Part shown: piece after piece, positions 35,104-64,000 of the stretch
How positions within the stretch are numbered: position 1 is the stretch's first letter
Layout: the number at the start of each line of letters is the position of its first letter
Origin: Syntrophus gentianae
GTDB taxonomy: Bacteria > Desulfobacterota > Syntrophia > Syntrophales > Syntrophaceae
Reading direction: 5' to 3'
Length of the DNA stretch: 64,000 nt
Assembly: GCF_900109885.1 (NCBI RefSeq)
Contig: NZ_FOBS01000007.1
Location: 1-64,000 of the forward strand
The notes under the pieces: model-generated
Database searches by the model: none
Seen by the model: the letters and a program-made list of their open reading frames with translations, nothing else
What the model was told of the DNA's origin: nothing
Program-made: the position numbers and the translations under genes

Positions 35104-38100
35104 ATGATTAGAGTAAAAATAGATGGCAGAAAGTATATTGCGAAGGACGGTGCGACCATCATCGATACGGCCCGGGCCGTCGGCATTGATATCCCTGCCT
35201 TGGGATACGACCCTCGTGTGAGTCCGCCGAGCGGTGTTGAAGCGGCCTTTGTGGAAGTGACCGAGGGGGGTAAAACGAGGTTCCTCTCGGCGACCTCGAC
35301 CCTGGTTCAGGACGGCATGGCCGTTCGTACGGACTCGGACGCCCTGCGGAACTACCGGAAAATTTATCTCCAGGCCCTTCTTCGCCATCATTACGGCGAT
35401 TGTGTGGCTCCCTGCGTCCTGCGATGTCCGGCCCATATCGACATTCAAAAATACATTTATTTCGTGGATTCCGGAAATTACCAGGAAGCCCTGGAGGTGA
35501 TCAAGGAGCGCAACCCCCTTCCCGCCGTCTGCGGACGGATTTGCCCGCACCCCTGCGAGACCGAGTGCCGCCGCAATGCCTTGGACGGTCCGGTCAATAT
35601 CAACGGGATCAAGCGGTTTGTTGCCGATTGGGATCGCTATCAGCCTTTTCCCTACCAGCCGGATTGCCAGCCGGATACTGGATTCCGGGTCGCCGTCGTC
35701 GGCGCTGGACCCGCAGGATTGTCCGCCGCCTGGTTCCTGAGACGAAAAGGCCACCAGGTGACCCTTTTCGAGATGCAGGAGGCCGCCGGCGGGATGCTGC
35801 GCTGGGGCATCCCCTTTTATCGACTGCCGGAAAAGGAACTCGATGAGGAAATTCAAGCCATTGTCGATCTGGGTGCTGAGATTCGATACAACAAAAAACT
35901 GGGCCGGGATTTCACCCTGGATTCCTTGAAAAAAGACGGCTACTCGGCTGTGTTCGTCGGACTAGGGGCGCAGAAGGCGACGGCCATCGGCGTGGAAGGG
36001 GAAAACCTGCCCGGCGTCCTGTCCGGTCTCGATTTTCTCGCCGGCCTTGCCCGAAACGAAAGACCGGAGCTGGGCCAGCGCGTCATCGTCCTGGGAGGCG
36101 GCAATACGGCCATGGATGCGGCCCGCAGCGCCGTACGGCTCGGCGCGAAGGATGTAACCGTCATCTATCGAAGGACGCGGCATGAAATGCCGGCACAGGA
36201 ACTGGAAGTCGAAGAAGCCCTTGAAGAGGGTGTTCATATGCAGTTCCTGACGGCGCCGGTTTCCATCGAGGCCTCGTCGGGGATGCTGCGCTTAAATTGC
36301 ATCCGGATGTCCCTCGGGGAACCGGATGCAAGCGGACGACGCAGGCCGGAGCCTGTCGCTGGTTCCGAATTTTCGATTCTGGCTGCCACCATCATCTCCG
36401 CGATCGGTCAGGCCGTAGACGGGGCCTGCCTGGGCAAGGAAGAACTGCTGAATTCCCGGGGACAGGTGGAAGCCGATCCGGTCACGCTTCAAACGGCCGT
36501 GCCCTGGGTTTTTTCCGGCGGGGATTGCGTGACGGGGCCCGACATCGCAATCGCCGCCATCGGCGCTGGACGGAGGGCGGCGGAGGCCATTGATCAGTAC
36601 CTTTTAAAAGGAATGGTTGAACAGCCGGAAGAGCCTTATACCTGCATGAAAGGGGAATGGCAAAGCCTTCCGGCAGAGGCGTTTGCCGACGTAGCTCTTC
36701 TAGACCGTCAGGAGATACCCGTCCATCCGCCCGAGGCGCGGATTCGGAATTTCGATGAAACCACGACGACCTGGAATCCGGAGAAGGCCATGGCCGAGGC
36801 CTCACGCTGTCTGTCCTGTGGCTGCACGGAACGGTACGAGTGCACCTTGAGAAATTATGCCACTCAATACGGCGTGACCTTCGAAGCTCTGGAGAAAACG
36901 ACCCCCTTGCCCATTGATGCGAATCACCCGATCATCACCCGGGACACGGGGAAGTGTATCCTGTGCGGCCTGTGTCTGAAGGTCTGCCGGGAAATGGAGG
37001 GTGTTTCGGCCCTGAGCTTCTATGAAACGAACAATGTGCTGACCATCGGGCCCAATGACCATCGCCCGCTGGATTTGACCACGTGTGTTGCCTGCGGTCA
37101 CTGCACCACGGTATGCCCGACCGGCGCCCTGACGCTGAAGCCAACGCTCCCCCACGTGTACCGGGCGATCCACGATCCGGAACTGACCGTAGTCGCTCAG
37201 ATTGCGCCGGCTGTCCGGGCGGCGTTCCGTGAATATTACGCGATCGATGCCGCCGATGTCATGCCGGTTTTGAGCGCGGGATTGAAGCAGCTCGGCTTTG
37301 ATTACGTATTCGATACCTGCTGGGCGGCTGATCTCACCATCATGGAGGAGGGCACGGAATTTCTCAGCCGTCTTGCCGAAGGCGGGGTCCTGCCCCAGAT
37401 TACCTCCTGCTGTCCTGCCTGGGTGAACTATTGCGAAAAGATGGCGCCGGACATCCTGCCCCATCTTTCTTCCTGTAAATCCCCGCAACAGATGTTCGGG
37501 GCCGTCATGAAGCAGTATTTCGCCAAGCAGCTCAATGTTCGGCCCGAGTTGCTCTATTTTGTCTCGATCATGCCCTGCAATGCCAAGAAATATGAGGCCA
37601 AGCGGCCGGAATTTCAAACAGACGGCATCCCCGACGTAGACATGGTCCTGACGACCAATGATGTCATCGCCATGTTCAGGGAAAGGCACATCGATCCCCA
37701 TGTCCTGTCGCCGGTTCCCCTCGATGATCTGTTCGGGAAAGTCAGCGGTGCGGGGATCATCTTCGGCGCCAGCGGCGGCGTGGCGGAGGCTGCCTTGCGC
37801 CTGGCGGCGGAGCGGGTAACGGGCAGACGTATGGAAGGCTTTGCCTATGAGGGCGTCCGGGGGCTCCAGGGCGTCAAGGAAACCACCGTGGTTCTTGGAG
37901 ATTCCCAGGTACGCCTGGCGGTGGTCAGTGGCTTGCAGAACGCCCAGAACCTGATCGACCGCATTCGTTCGGGAGACGCCCCCTATGACCTCATCGAAGT
38001 GATGGCCTGTCCCGGAGGCTGCATCAACGGGTCGGGGAATCCCGCTCCGCTTTTGACCAGCGACACGGAGCAGCGTCTCGATGTCCTCTATCGGCTCGAT

Positions 38101-56355: not shown

Positions 56356-57081
56356 ATGCCATGCAGATTATGCAATGAGAATAAGCCCCTCATGGAATCT
56401 CATATATTTCCAGAATGGCTTTACAGCCCGCTTTACGATGAAAATCATCGATTCTTTGTTCTTTCCACTGATGCAAACAAAAGAAGAGGCACCCGGCCAA
56501 AGGGAATCTATGAAAGGCTTTTATGCCATGAATGTGAACAGCGGCTTAGCAGGTGGGAAGGATACGCAAGGAATGTCTTTTTAGAATTGCCATTAAAAGT
56601 TATTGAGGATAATCGAGCGTTTGTATTTGCAGGTCTGAATTACGCTTCTTTTAAACTATTCCAAATGTCCTTGATTTGGCGAGCATCAATTTCAGACAGA
56701 CCTGAGGTACACAGGATCGACTTGGGTCCTCATTCAGAGAAAATTCGAAAAATGCTGTACGAGGAACTACCTGGAGAAGTTTATGAATACGGCTCAATTC
56801 TGATGCTGCCAGCGTTGAGCCAACAACTAATGCAGCAATTTGTGTATCCCCCTGAAAGGCTTCCCAGAAAGATAGACGGTCACACGGCCTATCGGGCAAT
56901 TTTGGGCGGTTTATTCTGGCTATTCATTGTTTCGAATCATTCGTCACGTGTTCCTCATGAAGTGTTTCTTTCAGAAAACGGGAATCTTCCTGTTTTCAAG
57001 GTTGGAGGGCCGGCCGTAATGTTCATGCAGCAATTAGCATCCGATTTCTTTGCGGCAGGCATGTTGAACAACCCGAAATAA
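56356..57081 (+). CDS. Cassette protein with HNH-like zinc motifs
   Basis: 241-residue protein. The N-terminus MPCRLCNENKPLMESHIFPEW holds a CxxC and a Ser-His pair, and LLCHECEQRLSRWEG a second CxxC, together the layout of a zinc-stabilised HNH/treble-clef nuclease-like domain. The rest (about 75-241) is mixed and unrecognised, with one hydrophobic stretch ILGGLFWLFIVSNHS. Whether it cuts DNA is unknown. It starts 21 bases after the lipoprotein frame and ends just before attC1. Intact and probably the functional cargo of the cassette. Confidence 0.7.
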   Translation: MPCRLCNENKPLMESHIFPEWLYSPLYDENHRFFVLSTDANKRRGTRPKGIYERLLCHECEQRLSRWEGYARNVFLELPLKVIEDNRAFVFAGLNYASFKLFQMSLIWRASISDRPEVHRIDLGPHSEKIRKMLYEELPGEVYEYGSILMLPALSQQLMQQFVYPPERLPRKIDGHTAYRAILGGLFWLFIVSNHSSRVPHEVFLSENGNLPVFKVGGPAVMFMQQLASDFFAAGMLNNPK

Positions 57082-57091
57082 TGAATAAAGC

Positions 57092-57178
57092 AGCTAACAA
57101 CAGCATGAACTCGGACTGGGAAAAACTGCGCAGCTTCGCTATGCAGCTTTTCCCATCCGGTTATGCTGAGCGTTATGG
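57092..57178 (+). repeat. attC recombination site 1
   Basis: An imperfect palindrome of about 87 bases. R'' is AGCTAAC (57092-57098), L'' is AGCATGAAC (57102-57110), L' is GGTTATGCT (57159-57167) and R' is GTTATGG (57172-57178). L'' and L' pair except for one unpaired G in L'', the extrahelical base typical of attC. Inside, CGGACTGGGAAAA pairs with TTTTCCCATCCGG. The G-TT crossover would be at 57172/57173. Confidence 0.82.
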
Positions 57179-57194
57179 TCAGAGGAATGGAACA

Positions 57195-57542
57195 ATGAAA
57201 ATCGCAAAGAATTCGATAGTTCCCTTCGACTTCGAGGGACTGCAAATAATTGACTACACGTCGAAAACCAACCGCTCGTCATCCATAGCGGAGATCATGG
57301 TTCTCCCCGGCGCCAGTCATCCGAAAGCCTATTCAAACAGGTCCGTCAAGTACTGATATGTTGTTTCGGGACGCGTCGAATTCGGTGTTGAAGACAACCT
57401 GTCCGAACTCATTGCTGGCAATGTCTGCGTCATCCCCAAAGGGCAACGGTTCTCATATCGGAATACGTCGAAAGAAACCGCGAAGCTCGTCTTGGTGCAT
57501 ACTCCTTCTTTCGATCTTGAATCCGAAGTACTTGAAAAATGA
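57195..57542 (+). pseudogene. Cupin-domain protein gene with one in-frame TGA
   Basis: The frame from ATG 57195 gives a cupin-like protein (about 115 codons) interrupted only by TGA at codon 54 (57354-57356). Before it: GASHPKAYSNRSVKY; after it: YVVSGRVEFGVED, IPKGQRFSYRNTSKETAKLVLVH and a normal TGA stop. The join KY-x-YVVSGRVEF is the typical cupin motif 1 to strand transition, where Tyr, Cys or Trp would fit. One substitution (for example TGG or TGC to TGA) explains it. No selenocysteine-type hairpin is evident after the TGA. Confidence 0.75.
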
Positions 57543-57577
57543 CGAAAAGCCTGTGAAGAAGAACGACGAAAAGAGCG

Positions 57578-57605
57578 CCATAACGAATAAGGTGATGAAC
57601 GTCAA
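57578..57605 (+). repeat. Left half of attC site 2
   Basis: R'' CCATAAC (57578-57584) is the exact complement of the GTTATGG that starts cassette 2. It is followed by an eight-base spacer-like stretch and L'' GTGATGAAC. No complementary L'/R' half is found before the istB remnant or in the 160 bases after it. Confidence 0.65.
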
Positions 57606-57681
57606 CTATTTTTTCCGATGAACGACAATTATAATTCCCGTTTTTGACTGTTGAATACAGCAGCTGAAACGAGGGAACTTA

Positions 57682-58152
57682 TCAGCTGCTAAATGCCAAA
57701 TTATGTTTTTGCGGCTCTGATTGAACCGATGGAATAGCAGCGGTTTCCTTTGTTTTTTGGGATTGCTCCAATCGGTAGCTGGATAAGTTCAACTCCAGGA
57801 TAACGCTGTGATGGACCAATCGGTCAATAGCTGCTGCCGTGGTCATGGGATCTTTAAAGATCTGCTCCCATTTTGAGAACGGCAAATTGCTGGTGATCAT
57901 TATGCTGCTACGCTCATAGCGGTCGGCAAGAAGAGTGAAGAGCACTTCCATCTCCTCTCGGCTTTGCTGCACGTAGCCGATGTCGTCAACGACCAAGGCC
58001 TCATATTTCGCATACTGCTTGAGAACGCGCGCCAGTTTCAGATCACGTTTGGCAATGAGCAGTTCCTGCACCAGCAGGCTGCAGGGAATAAAACGAACCT
58101 GTCGGCCCTGGTGAATCAATTCCTGAGCAATCGCGCACAAGAGGTGAGTGCG
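57682..58152 (-). pseudogene. istB remnant of an IS21-family insertion sequence
   Basis: About 156 codons of the IS21 helper ATPase IstB. Present: THLLCAIAQELIHQGRQVRF just after the Walker A loop, Walker B ALVVDDIGYVQQS, and TSNLPFSKWEQIFKD with the C-terminal DRLVHHSVILELNLSSYR. The Walker A motif and everything N-terminal are missing; similarity stops at about 58152. istA is absent. The remnant sits where the right half of attC2 should be, so it either inserted there or marks a deletion joint. Confidence 0.82.
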
Positions 58153-58300: not shown

Positions 58301-59863
58301 ATGACATTACCGATTGACCTCAACCGCGAAGAAAACCACCTTGTCAACGCTACTGTGATTGTGGGAGACAATGAAATTAGGGGCGTTCCTTGTAAGATAT
58401 ATCTACCCGAACGAATTCATGAAAAGCCATCCATAGTTCTCAAGCCAGTAAAGGATGATGCCAATAGAATAATGGCTTCCTGGAAAGGTGCACTCAAAGC
58501 GACCATCTATGGCTTCGACAGAGAAATCCAGACCACTATCGAGGCTCCGCAGGTCTATTTTTCGGGGGCATCTACAAAATACTGGGGTGACGGTGTTTCT
58601 GGTACCACTGTACCTGGTGAACCACAAGATCTCCACATAATCCATCACCTGAAAAACGACGATTCCCGAAACGGGACTCATATTGTGTTCTGGATCAGCC
58701 CGAACAAATTTCTGACGCCCTTTGTTGTGCTCTCTAGTTCGTATGCTGGGGAAATCAAGTGCGAGCACGCGACGGAACTATCGTTCACCATAAAGGGCGG
58801 GCGCAAACTCGTCTTTGAAAAACACTTTCGCCAAAAAACCGAAAAGAACCATGACATAGTGCGGTGGTCATTCCTGGTCGCGTGCACGGAAATAGAAAGC
58901 CCCGCCAATGACGCCACCACCATCAAGAACGGCATAATGCAGGACATAGATGACTTCTTGTTAGTAGCGTCATTCGCTGCAAACCAGCGTACAGCGTGCC
59001 TAGGATGGACCGCGGTTGACAGAAATGCACATACGACATTTTACCGAGGAAACTACACGTTTCCTCAGCCAGACGATAGCAATAGCCTTGAAGACGGGAT
59101 CATAGATATCAAAGAATTTCAGGAATTCATGGAAACGTTTTACCCTTCATTCCTGTATTTCGAGAATAAGCTTGCACTCCGCAACTCTCTCAATGCTGCG
59201 GTGCCTTCCAAATCCCGCACGCTGGAGACTTCTTTCCTGAACATGTTCGCTGGACTGGAAACCCTCATCTTGGACTTCAAACGGAGAAAAGGCCTAGAAT
59301 TCGTTCTGCCTGAACCTTCTTGGACTGACCTCAAAAAATATCTCAAAACCTGTATAAAGAAATCCACCGAGCCGAAGGTTGAGAAGGCGCAACGAGCATC
59401 GATCTACACTAAGCTTGGAGAATTGAACCGCGTATCGCTCAGAGAAGCTTTTGACGAGTTTTGCAAAGCGTATTCAATTGGTCTTACAGACTTGTGGCCT
59501 GTCTTTGCCGACAACCAAGAGACAGGCCTTTGCGACATAAGTAACAAGCTCATTCATGGAGACCCATTTCCGCACGATTTGATTGCGGCTCTGTCCATAG
59601 CTCGTGAACACATGGAGTATGTCCTGCAACGGGCAATACTTGGTGTTTTGGGCTGGAACGTTAAGAAGACAAAGATAAATCCGGCCTACCTTCGGGTGAA
59701 CCTCTGCGCCATTAAGGAATTACCAGCAGCAAAAGAGACGCTTTCTGCGTACGTGAACAGCGAAGAACCATCAGAAGTAACAGCCCTTCGAGAGCCGGAT
59801 GCTATGTCAATGCCGAAGCTTTGCGAGGACGACACGGGACAACCCGATATTGACGGAAGCTAA
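58301..59863 (+). CDS. HEPN/ApeA-like protein (candidate defence factor)
   Basis: 520-residue protein without a signal peptide. The first ~270 residues form a beta-rich domain (VNATVIVGDNEIRGVPCKIYL, GTHIVFWISPN). From about 300 it is helical: RTLETSFLNMFAGLETLILDF, LNRVSLREAFDEF, then SNKLIHGDPFP at about 414-424 and REHMEYVLQRAILGVLGW. This layout matches ApeA-type proteins, whose C-terminal HEPN domain is an RNase with RX4-6H. Here Ser414 stands where the Arg of R-N-x-x-x-H would be; His419 is kept. Assignment is by pattern only. Its stop codon lies at the intron boundary. Confidence 0.6.
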   Translation: MTLPIDLNREENHLVNATVIVGDNEIRGVPCKIYLPERIHEKPSIVLKPVKDDANRIMASWKGALKATIYGFDREIQTTIEAPQVYFSGASTKYWGDGVSGTTVPGEPQDLHIIHHLKNDDSRNGTHIVFWISPNKFLTPFVVLSSSYAGEIKCEHATELSFTIKGGRKLVFEKHFRQKTEKNHDIVRWSFLVACTEIESPANDATTIKNGIMQDIDDFLLVASFAANQRTACLGWTAVDRNAHTTFYRGNYTFPQPDDSNSLEDGIIDIKEFQEFMETFYPSFLYFENKLALRNSLNAAVPSKSRTLETSFLNMFAGLETLILDFKRRKGLEFVLPEPSWTDLKKYLKTCIKKSTEPKVEKAQRASIYTKLGELNRVSLREAFDEFCKAYSIGLTDLWPVFADNQETGLCDISNKLIHGDPFPHDLIAALSIAREHMEYVLQRAILGVLGWNVKKTKINPAYLRVNLCAIKELPAAKETLSAYVNSEEPSEVTALREPDAMSMPKLCEDDTGQPDIDGS

Positions 59864-61767
59864 TCGGGTAGCCGGGGGTTTTTCTCCCCCAGCCCCCACA
59901 CCACCCGGCATGCGGGTCCGCACCGGGCGGTTCACAGAGATTACCGGTCCGTAGCCGGGTAGTGAATTTGAACCCACAGCTCTTTGACAGATAGAAGCCC
60001 TTGATCCTTGAGCCATTTGTTGGTCATTCCCGTTTGCGTTGCCAATGTCCGGGACAAATGCCATGGACCTTTGCGGCTGATCGCCACAGAGATAGCCACA
60101 TGGAGAGTTGTTCCCAGTTTGCAAAGCTCCCGTACCTTGGTTCTTGCCCAGCGCCACTGTTTGAAGTAGCACATTCGCAAGCGCCTTCTCAGCCAGGAGT
60201 CTATTTCCGGAATCGGCCTATAATATTCCGAAATCCCGAAGTAGTTCATCCAGCCGCGGAGATATTCGGCAAGCTTCTGATACCGATAGCCCATGGAGAC
60301 AAACCAGGACCGACCGGTCAGCTCTTTGACCCTTCGCTTGAATTCACGGAAGGCTTTCTCCGACCAGTGAATCTTGGTTCCACGGAAAGTGAAGCCAAGA
60401 AAGACAGCCTGATTTGTCGGGACGACTCGGCTTTTCTCCTCGTTGACCTTGAGTTTGAGGGTGCGTTCCAGGAAGCGTTTCAGGCTTCCCATGACCCGTT
60501 CGCCCGCCCGTCGGCTTTTCACCAGAACGATGAAGTCGTCGGCATAGCGAACAAAACGATGTCCACGCTTCTCAAGCTCTTTATCGAGATCATCCAGGAA
60601 AATGTTGGCAAGTAATGGTTACAAGGGACCACCCGGTGTGACTCCCAGGTGGGTTTCCTGCAAGCGGTCCTGGTTAATTACTCCGGCACGCAAGTATTTT
60701 CCGATCAGGCGCAGTAACCGTTTATCGCGTACTTTTCGCGCCACACGGTGCATCAGGACATCGTGGTTGACTGTGTCGAAAAACTTCGGCAGGTCCATAT
60801 CGACGGCGATGCGATAGCCTTCACGGATGTACGCGCGAACCTTGTACACCGCATGATGGGCGGACCGTCCAGGACGGAAACCGAAGCTTGAATCCGAAAA
60901 GGTCGGTTCAAAGATCGGAGTCAAAACCTGAGCGATGGCCTGTTGGATCAGCCGGTCGAGAACGGTCGGGATGCCCAGAGGACGAGTTCCCCCTGTTGGT
61001 TTTGGAATCTCTACCCGTCGTACCGGTGAGGGTTGATACTTACCTGTTAAAAGAGATTCGCGAATTCCGGTCCAGAAAGGTCTGGTATGGTCTGGAAACT
61101 GCTCGATGGCGATGCCATCGATACCGGGTGCGCCGCGATTGGCCTTTACCCTTTTCCAAGCCACTGCCATGTTCTCTTTGGAAAGAATCCACTCCAGCAA
61201 GCGCTCATTTGGGTCGTACGATTCCACGATGCGCCCCATGGGCACTTCTCCGTACGGATTCATCATGTCCTGAGAGCTCATAGAGGTTCTTCCCTTCTCT
61301 GTGTTCGGCCCTTCGGCGGGGTAAGTCTTTCCCGGCTTTTCTCCTTTCGCCGGGCTTGTTTCCTCTCGCCTAATATGGCCTCTGCTGACTCCTGTCCGGC
61401 CCTCCGCCATGTTGCCATGACGGGCGCCACTCCCGGAGGAGTTGCAAACCGGGCAGGTCTCCCCGGACTCTTTTCAGTACCCCCTTGAGGGGTATAAGAA
61501 CGTAAACTGTGACTATGCAACCGCAGCATTTACCGTATCTCCCGAATCCAGGGCTTTTTCATGTCGTGCTGACTTACCCGGAGACTCAGCCTTGTATGTT
61601 GTTTCTGTTCGTCGGCTCATAGCTTTGCACTCCGGCTTCCTTCGGACGGTCTCTCACAGTTCCGCCCTTGCCTTCGACTAGTACTTGTGTCAATGTATAA
61701 AGCATTGACAGGATTCACATACAGGGGGCTTTCACCCCATAAGTTCACGCCCGTGCCGGGCGTACAC
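59864..61767 (-). mobile_element. Class C group II intron inserted in attC (class C-attC type)
   Basis: About 1.9 kb, transcribed opposite to the cassette genes. The 5' end reads GTGTACGCCCGGCACGGGC (from 61767), a class C start. The 3' end has the domain V/VI pair: CGGTGCGGACCCGCATGCCG, a GGGGGAGAAAAACCCCC hairpin and a CTACCCGAT end (about 59864-59930). The boundaries are good to one or two bases. The ribozyme 5' domains occupy about 61290-61767 and the reverse transcriptase lies in domain IV. Insertion into the bottom strand of attC is the known habit of this subgroup. Confidence 0.82.
59941..61281 (-). pseudogene. Group II intron reverse transcriptase/maturase, one nonsense codon
   Basis: 446 codons from the ATG at 61281 (MSSQDMMNPYGEVP), with RT blocks GKYQPSPVRRVEIPKPTGGTRPLGIP, FGFRPGRSAHHAV, VDMDLPKFFDTVNHD, GVTPGGPL-stop-PLLANIFLDDLD and the catalytic YADD in FVRYADDFIVLVKS. 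The maturase domain with YLRGWMNYFGISE follows. The only break is TAA at codon 221 (60619-60621), where the family has Ser (GGPLSPLL), so a single TCA-to-TAA change inactivated it. There is no endonuclease domain, as usual for class C. Confidence 0.88.
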
Positions 61768-61830
61768 CACAGCATCAACTCGGACTGGCAATTCCGCTGC
61801 GCTCCATTGCCAGCCGGTTACGCGGAACAG
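61768..61830 (+). repeat. Right part of attC site 3
   Basis: CAGCATCAACTCGGACTGGC (from 61770) and GCCAGCCGGTTACGC (61809-61823) form the stem, again with one unpaired base (C) in L''. It is closely related to attC1: the segment AGCAT-n-AACTCGGACTGG is common to both. R'' lies on the other side of the intron at about 59857-59863. R' is not recognisable. Confidence 0.68.
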
Positions 61831-61859: not shown

Positions 61860-64000
61860 ATGAGTGATTACCGTCTTTCCGAGTTGCTTGACTTGACCAT
61901 CATGCAGAAGATGGCTGATGCGCACTACCAGGCAGCAGGCATGCCCATCGGGATCATCGATGCCCTCGACGGTTCGATCCTCGTTGGATCCGGCTGGCAG
62001 GATATATGTGTCAAATTCCACCGCGCCTATCCGGATTCACTTCGACGCTGCCAGGAGAGTGACGATTTCATCAAGGGCCGCCTTGTCGAAGGCGAGGCCT
62101 GTCAGTATAAATGCAAAAACGGGCTCTGGGACATAGGCATACCGATCGTAGTAGCCCGACGTCATCTGGCAACCATGTTTCTGGGGCAGTTTTTTTATGA
62201 AGGAGAGGCCCCTGATCGGGGCTTCTTTATCAACTTGGCTCATGAATTGAGTTTTGATGTTGATGAATATCTTGCAGCACTCGACCGGGTGCCGGTCTTT
62301 AGCCGCGAAAAAGTCCATGACATAGTCGAATACGACAAGGCGCTGGTGCGTTTTATCAGTGATCTTGGAGAACATGCGCTCTCGAAAATCAAGGCGGACA
62401 AGATAATTCGTGAAAATGAGCGGAGGTTTTACGCCATATTTGACCAGTCCTACCAATTGCTCTGGTCGATATCCATCGACGGCAGAGTCCTGGAAGTAAA
62501 TAAAACGGCCTTGAAAGTTGGCGGCGTTGAAGAGGTGGATGTCATCGGCAAACCTTTCTGGGAAACTTCCTGGTGGGCGCATTCACCTGTACTGCAGGAA
62601 AAACTCCGTCTGGCGGTTCAGCAGGTTGCGAATGGTGAGGTTATCCGATTTGAAGCAACCTACCCCGCCACCGATGGGAGTCTCTACTATTTTGATTTTT
62701 CACTAAAACCAATAATAGATGAAGCAGGGAAGGTTGTTCTACTGATAGGGGACGGTCAGAATATCACCGAACGTAAGAGGGCGGAGGAGGAGCTTTCAGA
62801 CAATTCCCGGTTCTTTGAAAATATGGATAGGGTCAACCGGGCCATGCAGGGGACGAATGATCTTGATCAGATGATGAGCAATGTTCTCGACGTCCTTCTT
62901 TCGATCTTCGATTGTGACAGGGCGTGGCTGGTCTATCCGTGCGATCCCGAAGCCGCTTCGTGGCGAGTTTCGATGGAGCGTAACCGGCCGGATTATCCCG
63001 GTGCCTTGGATATGGGAGTTGATGAGGTTCCCATGGATTCGGATGTAGTCAAGGTGTTCCAAACAATGAGGGCCTCCAGCGAACCTGTGACATTCGGTCA
63101 CGGATCTGATCAGCCGCTGGTGGGAGAGGTTCCGGAGCGTCTCCGCGAACAGTCCCAAATTGCGATCACCTTGTACCCCAAAGTAGGCAAACCCTGGCTC
63201 TTTGGACTACACCAGTGCTCATACCAGCGGGTCTGGAGACTGGAGGAAAAGAAGCTTATACAGGAGATCGGCAGGCGTTTGACCGACGGTCTAACAAGTC
63301 TGTTGGCCTATCGCGAACTGCATGACAGCGAAGAACTCTACCACTCATTGTTCGATAACATGCTGAACGGATTTGCGTATTGCCGGATGATTTTTGATCA
63401 AGGGAGGCCAAAAGATTTCATCTGCCTTGAGGTGAACAATGCCTTTGAATCATTAACAGGGTTGAAGAATGTTATCGGGAAAAAAGTATCTGAAGTAATC
63501 CCGGGCATACAAGAGTCAGATCCGGAACTGTTCGAAATCTTGGGAAGGGTGGCTTCAACAGGCAACCCCGAGAGGTCTGAAATCTATGTGAAAGCCTTAG
63601 AGCAGTGGCTTGCGATCTCCGTGTACAACCCTGGAGAAGAATGCTTTACGGTTGTATTCGACGTTATCACCGAGCACAAGCGGTCTGAAGAGAAGCTGAT
63701 GAGTCAGATGGAGTTCGTCACAACGCTCCTGGATACTATCCCCAACCCTGTCTTCTACAAGGATTGTCAGGGTCGATATATCAGTTGTAATCGCGCCTTT
63801 GAGCAGTTCTATGGGATGTTGAGAGAGGAAATAGCTGGGAAGACTGTATACGAGATTGCACCAAAGGAAATAGCCGATGAATATCGCCGAAAAGACGATG
63901 AGCTCTTCGTGCACCCGGGGACGCAGACGTACGAGTGGGCTGTGCAGTCCGCCGATGGGGTCCGGCACGATGTCATCTACCACAAAGCCACCTTTGACGG
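61860..64000 (+). CDS. PocR-PAS-GAF-PAS sensor protein, incomplete at window end
   Basis: Open frame of at least 713 codons, cut by the window. It begins with a PocR ligand-binding domain (about 5-170; MQKMADAHYQAAGMPIGIID, CQESDDF, GEACQYKCKNGLWDIGIPI with its conserved cysteines). Then follow a PAS domain (about 190-310), a GAF domain (about 325-470), a second PAS (about 480-615) and a third PAS starting near 620 (FVTTLLDTIPNPVFYKDCQGRY). The output domain, probably a histidine kinase, is beyond the window. The ATG at 61860 has an ideal AAGGAGGTGA, 20-30 bases after the last attC half. Confidence 0.88.
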   Translation, partial: MSDYRLSELLDLTIMQKMADAHYQAAGMPIGIIDALDGSILVGSGWQDICVKFHRAYPDSLRRCQESDDFIKGRLVEGEACQYKCKNGLWDIGIPIVVARRHLATMFLGQFFYEGEAPDRGFFINLAHELSFDVDEYLAALDRVPVFSREKVHDIVEYDKALVRFISDLGEHALSKIKADKIIRENERRFYAIFDQSYQLLWSISIDGRVLEVNKTALKVGGVEEVDVIGKPFWETSWWAHSPVLQEKLRLAVQQVANGEVIRFEATYPATDGSLYYFDFSLKPIIDEAGKVVLLIGDGQNITERKRAEEELSDNSRFFENMDRVNRAMQGTNDLDQMMSNVLDVLLSIFDCDRAWLVYPCDPEAASWRVSMERNRPDYPGALDMGVDEVPMDSDVVKVFQTMRASSEPVTFGHGSDQPLVGEVPERLREQSQIAITLYPKVGKPWLFGLHQCSYQRVWRLEEKKLIQEIGRRLTDGLTSLLAYRELHDSEELYHSLFDNMLNGFAYCRMIFDQGRPKDFICLEVNNAFESLTGLKNVIGKKVSEVIPGIQESDPELFEILGRVASTGNPERSEIYVKALEQWLAISVYNPGEECFTVVFDVITEHKRSEEKLMSQMEFVTTLLDTIPNPVFYKDCQGRYISCNRAFEQFYGMLREEIAGKTVYEIAPKEIADEYRRKDDELFVHPGTQTYEWAVQSADGVRHDVIYHKATFD

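Follow-up and report, generated by a model that had tools for sequence, protein, structure and literature searches.

A rare ApeA-related HEPN protein with an altered motif in what looks like a decaying attC cluster of Syntrophus gentianae

The described systems closest to the protein considered here are ApeA, a bacterial anti-phage RNase, and other defence proteins with a HEPN domain, for which the RNase motif is Rx4-6H. According to PMC3710099, the RNases that were tested require the histidine, and KEN and PrrC need the arginine as well. The same paper notes that some HEPN families have lost the arginine (Parep1/8) or may use alternative sites, and that these may still act. PMC13405049 describes an anti-phage HEPN protein without the canonical motif, which has a dispersed site in which the distant residues H64 and R122 are both needed; it also cites a preprint that, going by its title, deals with the activation of ApeA by deoxydinucleotides. 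In S. aureus, the phage-borne HEPN protein Tha responds to a phage tail protein, which activates it, and it depends on the motif histidine (PMC11087260).

We have analyzed a window of 64,000 nucleotides from Syntrophus gentianae (contig NZ_FOBS01000007.1, positions 1 to 64,000), in which one gene encodes a predicted HEPN protein (Table 1). The initial annotation had given its coordinates, a length of 520 residues and the motif SNKLIHGD, and all three proved correct when the sequence was read again. The frame is intact, with zero internal stops, and the position of the arginine in Rx4-6H is occupied by Ser414, which is encoded by AGT. The proposed division into a beta-rich N-terminal half and a helical C-terminal half agrees with DSSP assignments on an AlphaFold2 model of very low confidence (pLDDT 35), in which strands extend to about residue 198 and helices begin at residue 205. 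The GC content of the gene is 0.478 and its GC3 is 0.525. With gene names assigned by eye, this GC content is below that of the HtpG, flavoprotein and PAS protein genes and of the gene at 35104, about equal to that of a chemoreceptor gene and above that of the gene at 56356. Promoter-like matches were not enriched over shuffles (2 found, shuffle mean 2.6).

Table 1. Positions of the HEPN gene, its motif and the neighboring elements in the window.
Feature	Position	Strand	Remarks
Preceding cassette gene, 241 aa	56356..57081	+	CxxC and CHxCE; phrog_19960 at E 1.5e-18
attC1	57089..57178	+	Strong hairpin enclosed by GCTAAC ... GTTATGG arms
Cupin-like cassette ORF, broken into two frames	57195-57621	+	Directly after attC1; named by eye
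Truncated IS21 helper ATPase IstB	57682..58140	-	125/232 profile positions; between attC1 and the HEPN gene
HEPN gene	58301..59863	+	ATG, 520 aa; ORF reading, profile comparison and phrog_22870 match
Helical region, residues about 201-453, ApeA-aligned	58901..59659	+	hhalign profile comparison
Altered HEPN motif DISNKLIHGD, residues 412-421	59534..59563	+	Ser414 at the Arg position, His419 retained; in register with ApeA RNYYTH / RNYLTH
attC2 left half, GCTAA	59859..59863	+	Overlaps the HEPN-ORF stop codon; read from the sequence
Group II intron in attC2	59863..61767	-	Rfam RF02001 and RF01998; RT Pfam match; ends placed by eye
attC2 right half	61768..61828	+	Diverged R' box; shared motif

None of the Pfam, PADLOC and NCBIfam models matched the 520-residue protein at E<=10. 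It does match phrog_22870 of PHROGs v4 (E 9.4e-32), with residues 124-465 aligned to profile positions 123-456 of 481, that is, over most of the profile length. A tblastn search of 50,697 phage records with the window protein found no member of the phrog_22870 type, and a literature search on the name phrog_22870 found nothing. A PDB sequence search with the window protein returned chance-level rows only, with no match to 3jrt or to any HEPN chain, and so a solved relative identifiable by sequence was rejected.

The sole full-length relative that we found is encoded in a Syntrophaceae bacterium UBA1163 metagenome-assembled genome (DBZJ01000240.1; locus L004:95-1531) and is 33% identical. It resembles the window protein over nearly the full length, but has DIRNKLVHGE at the motif and a shorter C-terminal tail, and it also matches phrog_22870 (E 1.3e-15). 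Its gene is convergent with a methylase gene of the restriction-modification type, the product of which has matches to Eco57I, TaqI_C and N6_Mtase. Four Xanthomonas campestris plasmids carry a C-terminal relative, found by tblastn in the plasmid collection at E 5e-3. When the C-terminal fragment was the query, nine plasmid records were returned, namely the four from Xanthomonas (4e-4) and a further five with E values of 0.9 or higher; the UBA1163 protein as the query found none. The Xanthomonas protein (WP_274361204.1) aligns pairwise with the window protein at E 4e-10 and matches phrog_22870 at E 0.011. Its homology is C-terminal, the N-terminal half has diverged and its FRNDLFH keeps the arginine.

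Other members are few. Two of the 395 genomes in a phylum sample have a match, namely the window's own genome and G192 (contig C39 of G192 and DBZJ01000240.1, which agree in length and in the place of the match, are taken as one contig), and profile searches of further genome sets gave one match each at the level of the order (1/155) and class (1/155) and in two other sets (1/17 and 1/23). Every one of these genome-set matches is to the window's own genome or to G192, and two scans of genome contigs found one locus, that of UBA1163. Scans of viral contigs with the window-protein family found no relatives, nor did tblastn searches of phages with the window protein and the UBA1163 protein; the C-terminal fragment returned two rows from Mycobacterium phages, both at the level of chance (E 5). 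The family is rare, and the few members found are on mobile or defence-flavored DNA.

The relation to ApeA was measured against 14 ApeA proteins (A5). Of 28 plasmid ApeA records, 12 were retrieved. The partial ApeA locus L012, present in alignment A3, was left out of A5, and the ApeA fragments L007 and L009 were also unused. All 14 proteins match both ApeA Pfam models (PF18739 and PF18862), and the motif arginine and histidine are each kept in 13. The protein that has lost both (L008:556-2067) reads GNMLSD at the motif, yet it matches both Pfam models.

In our own hhalign runs against the profile of these 14 sequences, made with a column rule different from that of the standard tool, a two-row profile (A1) scored 50.7 (prob 84) and a three-row profile (A4) scored 56.6 (prob 90); the tool itself gave prob 71 and 87, respectively. 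For comparison, the best of 100 column shuffles per query scored 25.0 (A1) and 22.8 (A4), reversed controls scored 15.7 and 21.9, and the best of 12 control ORFs from the window scored 20.8. Taken singly, the window protein scored 47.3 (prob 80), the UBA1163 protein 40.1 (prob 53) and the Xanthomonas protein 29.7 (prob 8). The alignment covers window residues 209-455 and ApeA residues 202-452 (149-453 and 287-455 in other runs), with SNKLIH in register on the ApeA motif. The signal is carried by the C-terminal piece, residues 286-470, which gave prob 89 and 92. The N-terminal half (residues 1-205 and 1-285) gave prob 0.07-0.2 against the ApeA profile, the values for residues 1-205 being 0.07 and 0.08, and it has no detectable relation to ApeA_NTD1. 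In a comparison of ApeA with two other HEPN families, taken from the same phylum, the A4 C-terminal piece matched ApeA at prob 94 over 159 columns, Swt1 at prob 75 over 30 columns and RiboL-PSP at prob 8; the true scores were 50.7, 35.5 and 24.3, against maxima of 18.7, 20.9 and 19.0 in 40 shuffles per target.

As far as sequence profiles go, the protein belongs to the HEPN superfamily, its C-terminal half is soundly identified as a HEPN domain, and of the three HEPN families tested, none comes nearly as close as ApeA. The Rx4-6H motif is incomplete, with the histidine kept and a serine for the arginine, but this does not exclude HEPN membership, since the superfamily admits members without the arginine in the treatment of PMC3710099 cited above. 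Full ApeA membership, in contrast, was rejected on the Pfam results, the protein being below the cut-off of HEPN_Apea (PF18739) and without a match to it or to ApeA_NTD1 (PF18862) at E<=10, and on an N-terminal half that has no detectable relation to ApeA. The suggestion of an ApeA-like protein, possibly an undescribed ApeA branch, would thus hold for the HEPN half and not for ApeA proper. On these profile comparisons the family is best named ApeA-related and kept separate from ApeA proper, from which it is distant, and it is unlisted.

Structure modeling added little. The AlphaFold2 model made with the window protein and the UBA1163 protein had a mean pLDDT of 35.1, and the one made with residues 200-470, the UBA1163 protein and four ApeA sequences from viral contigs had 40.2. 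A Foldseek search with the second model gave no match at E<=0.001, and because matches from a model of such confidence are meaningless, we count this result as evidence for neither side.

The initial annotation had noted the absence of the arginine from SNKLIHGD, which is true of the window copy, but both relatives found retain R-x4-H (RNKLVHG in UBA1163 and RNDLFH in Xanthomonas), and the absence does not characterize the branch. The UBA1163 codon is AGA, a single-base difference from the AGT of the window gene. Because both relatives keep the motif, the arginine is probably ancestral, which is the simplest reading of three sequences, and its loss looks specific to the window copy. His419, Asn415 and Glu320 of the window protein are kept in comparison with the UBA1163 protein. 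Two basic residues, Lys416 and Arg377, are conserved or lie close to the motif in the sequence; however, the UBA1163 protein has both of them in addition to the motif arginine, and so neither is marked as a substitute. With no evident substitute, Ser414 would leave the window copy catalytically weak or dead.

The initial annotation had also described the gene as cassette-borne, and here the two sides differ. The bottom strand of attC1 (57089-57172) folds at -22.8 kcal/mol (z -5.2), with none of 200 shuffles as low, and attC1 is convincing. On the other side, attC2 is degraded and split by an intron, the hairpin that it forms on the bottom strand is weak (z -1.9), and when its flanks are joined the fold is no better than shuffles (z -0.5). 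The sequence CAGCATSAACTCGGACTGG is common to attC1 and the attC-like half-site past the group II intron, with 2 sites in the window and 0.05 expected. Since a scan of the window with a strict attC pattern found none, the attC claim rests on this repeated motif and on the fold. The stretch from attC1 to the gene also contains a fragment of IstB and a cupin-like frame that is broken. Taken together, the HEPN gene is likely to be cassette-borne, on the evidence of a single good attC and of a second one that is degraded and split by the intron.

The intron interrupts attC2 at the HEPN stop codon and is oriented opposite to the cassette genes. Group IIC-attC introns insert in the R'' box of the attC bottom strand, opposite to the cassette, according to PMC7923331; the orientation and position of this putative group IIC intron agree with that rule, and its TTGT/T target is inexact. 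Its reverse transcriptase frame contains YADD and one in-frame stop. The best match to an integron integrase in the genome (G000:C2:44576-45529; L040 and L041) is on another contig, in pieces and with a stop. The in-frame stop of the reverse transcriptase, the truncated IstB, the broken cupin-like frame and the split integrase elsewhere are the reasons why the locus resembles a short, decaying attC cluster that lacks its integrase. At the two edges of the cluster, the product encoded just before attC1 is possibly an HNH-like nuclease, and a long sensor-like frame with PAS-like repeats, recognized by eye, lies directly after attC2 (61861-64000, + strand) and runs off the window.

We consider it fairly probable that the window gene belongs to a rare, separate, ApeA-related family of single-protein anti-phage effectors and that the window copy is weak or dead. 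What is observed is the HEPN identity, the affinity to ApeA, R-x4-H in two relatives, the restriction-modification neighbor in UBA1163 and the change from arginine to serine here. The proposed mechanism is modeled on ApeA and other HEPN effectors: a signal of infection would be perceived by the beta-rich N-terminal half, and the C-terminal HEPN domain would dimerize and cut RNA, stopping the cell; the role of the family would be phage defence by abortive infection. The sensor and HEPN logic of Tha and ApeA may thus extend to this family, although the profile and family comparisons tied the N-terminal half to no sensor. The copy with Ser414 would be carried along in a cassette block that is decaying. 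A point against this is that the 520-codon frame stays open amid broken neighbors, as it might if selection acted on a protein that is active or useful in some other way, or merely if the gene arrived recently. Another is that HEPN families without the arginine may still act (PMC3710099) and that an anti-phage HEPN protein can lack the canonical motif (PMC13405049).

A bolder version of the same idea, in which an undescribed single-gene defence effector joins a non-ApeA sensor to an ApeA-type HEPN domain and the cassette copy works without the arginine, either through a changed active site or in the role of a catalytically dead sensor that binds RNA, seems rather unlikely to us. Its two variants can also be weighed as explanations of the window protein alone. 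If the protein were an active RNase with a changed layout, another basic residue would replace the arginine at position 414 in the dimer cleft. The open frame, the retained His419, Asn415 and Glu320, and the presence of Lys416 and Arg377 in both proteins would allow this, and PMC3710099 and PMC13405049 offer precedents for displaced active residues; however, the arginine-bearing relative has the same two basic residues, no new substitute is evident, and KEN and PrrC need the arginine, so that we regard an active RNase as improbable. We give as little credence to a catalytically dead HEPN protein kept as a regulator, whether a decoy, an RNA binder or a dampener of an active relative: an intact ORF with a single catalytic residue lost would suit it, and inactive HEPN domains may serve to bind RNA, as PMC3710099 proposes, but the genome has a single match, and thus no active paralogue, and the surroundings are in decay. 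Finally, a HEPN toxin of the usual integron-cassette kind, with no connection to phages and acting in stress dormancy as proposed for the 3jrt family, would fit the upstream attC and the integron cassette HEPN with a dormancy role described in PMC3710099, but is very unlikely given the PDB result, a size and architecture that follow ApeA, and relatives that lie on plasmids or close to a restriction-modification gene (settings judged without an attC search).

The family that we continue to favor, one of ApeA-related effectors with a weakened or dead copy in the window, marks a group that escapes the present models of Pfam, PADLOC and NCBIfam. If it is true that the N-terminal half senses a non-ApeA signal, HEPN halves of this type would be combined with different sensors. 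The natural difference between arginine and serine also provides a direct test of the need for the arginine in the ApeA-related branch.

In comparison with known systems, the window protein differs from ApeA (the Cas13-ApeA of PADLOC) in having no Pfam or PADLOC match, an N-terminal half with no detectable relation and a serine in place of the motif arginine; what the two have in common is a similar length and a co-linear C-terminal HEPN half, with 14-15% identity in the profile alignments. Phrog_22870, which both the window and UBA1163 proteins match, is a family of phage proteins without an assigned function in PHROGs. The HEPN protein of the Type IX retron (retron-Kva2; PMC13405049) is an anti-phage HEPN-type protein that likewise lacks the canonical motif; unlike the window protein, it is a component of a retron complex, and its active histidine and arginine are known and are both needed.
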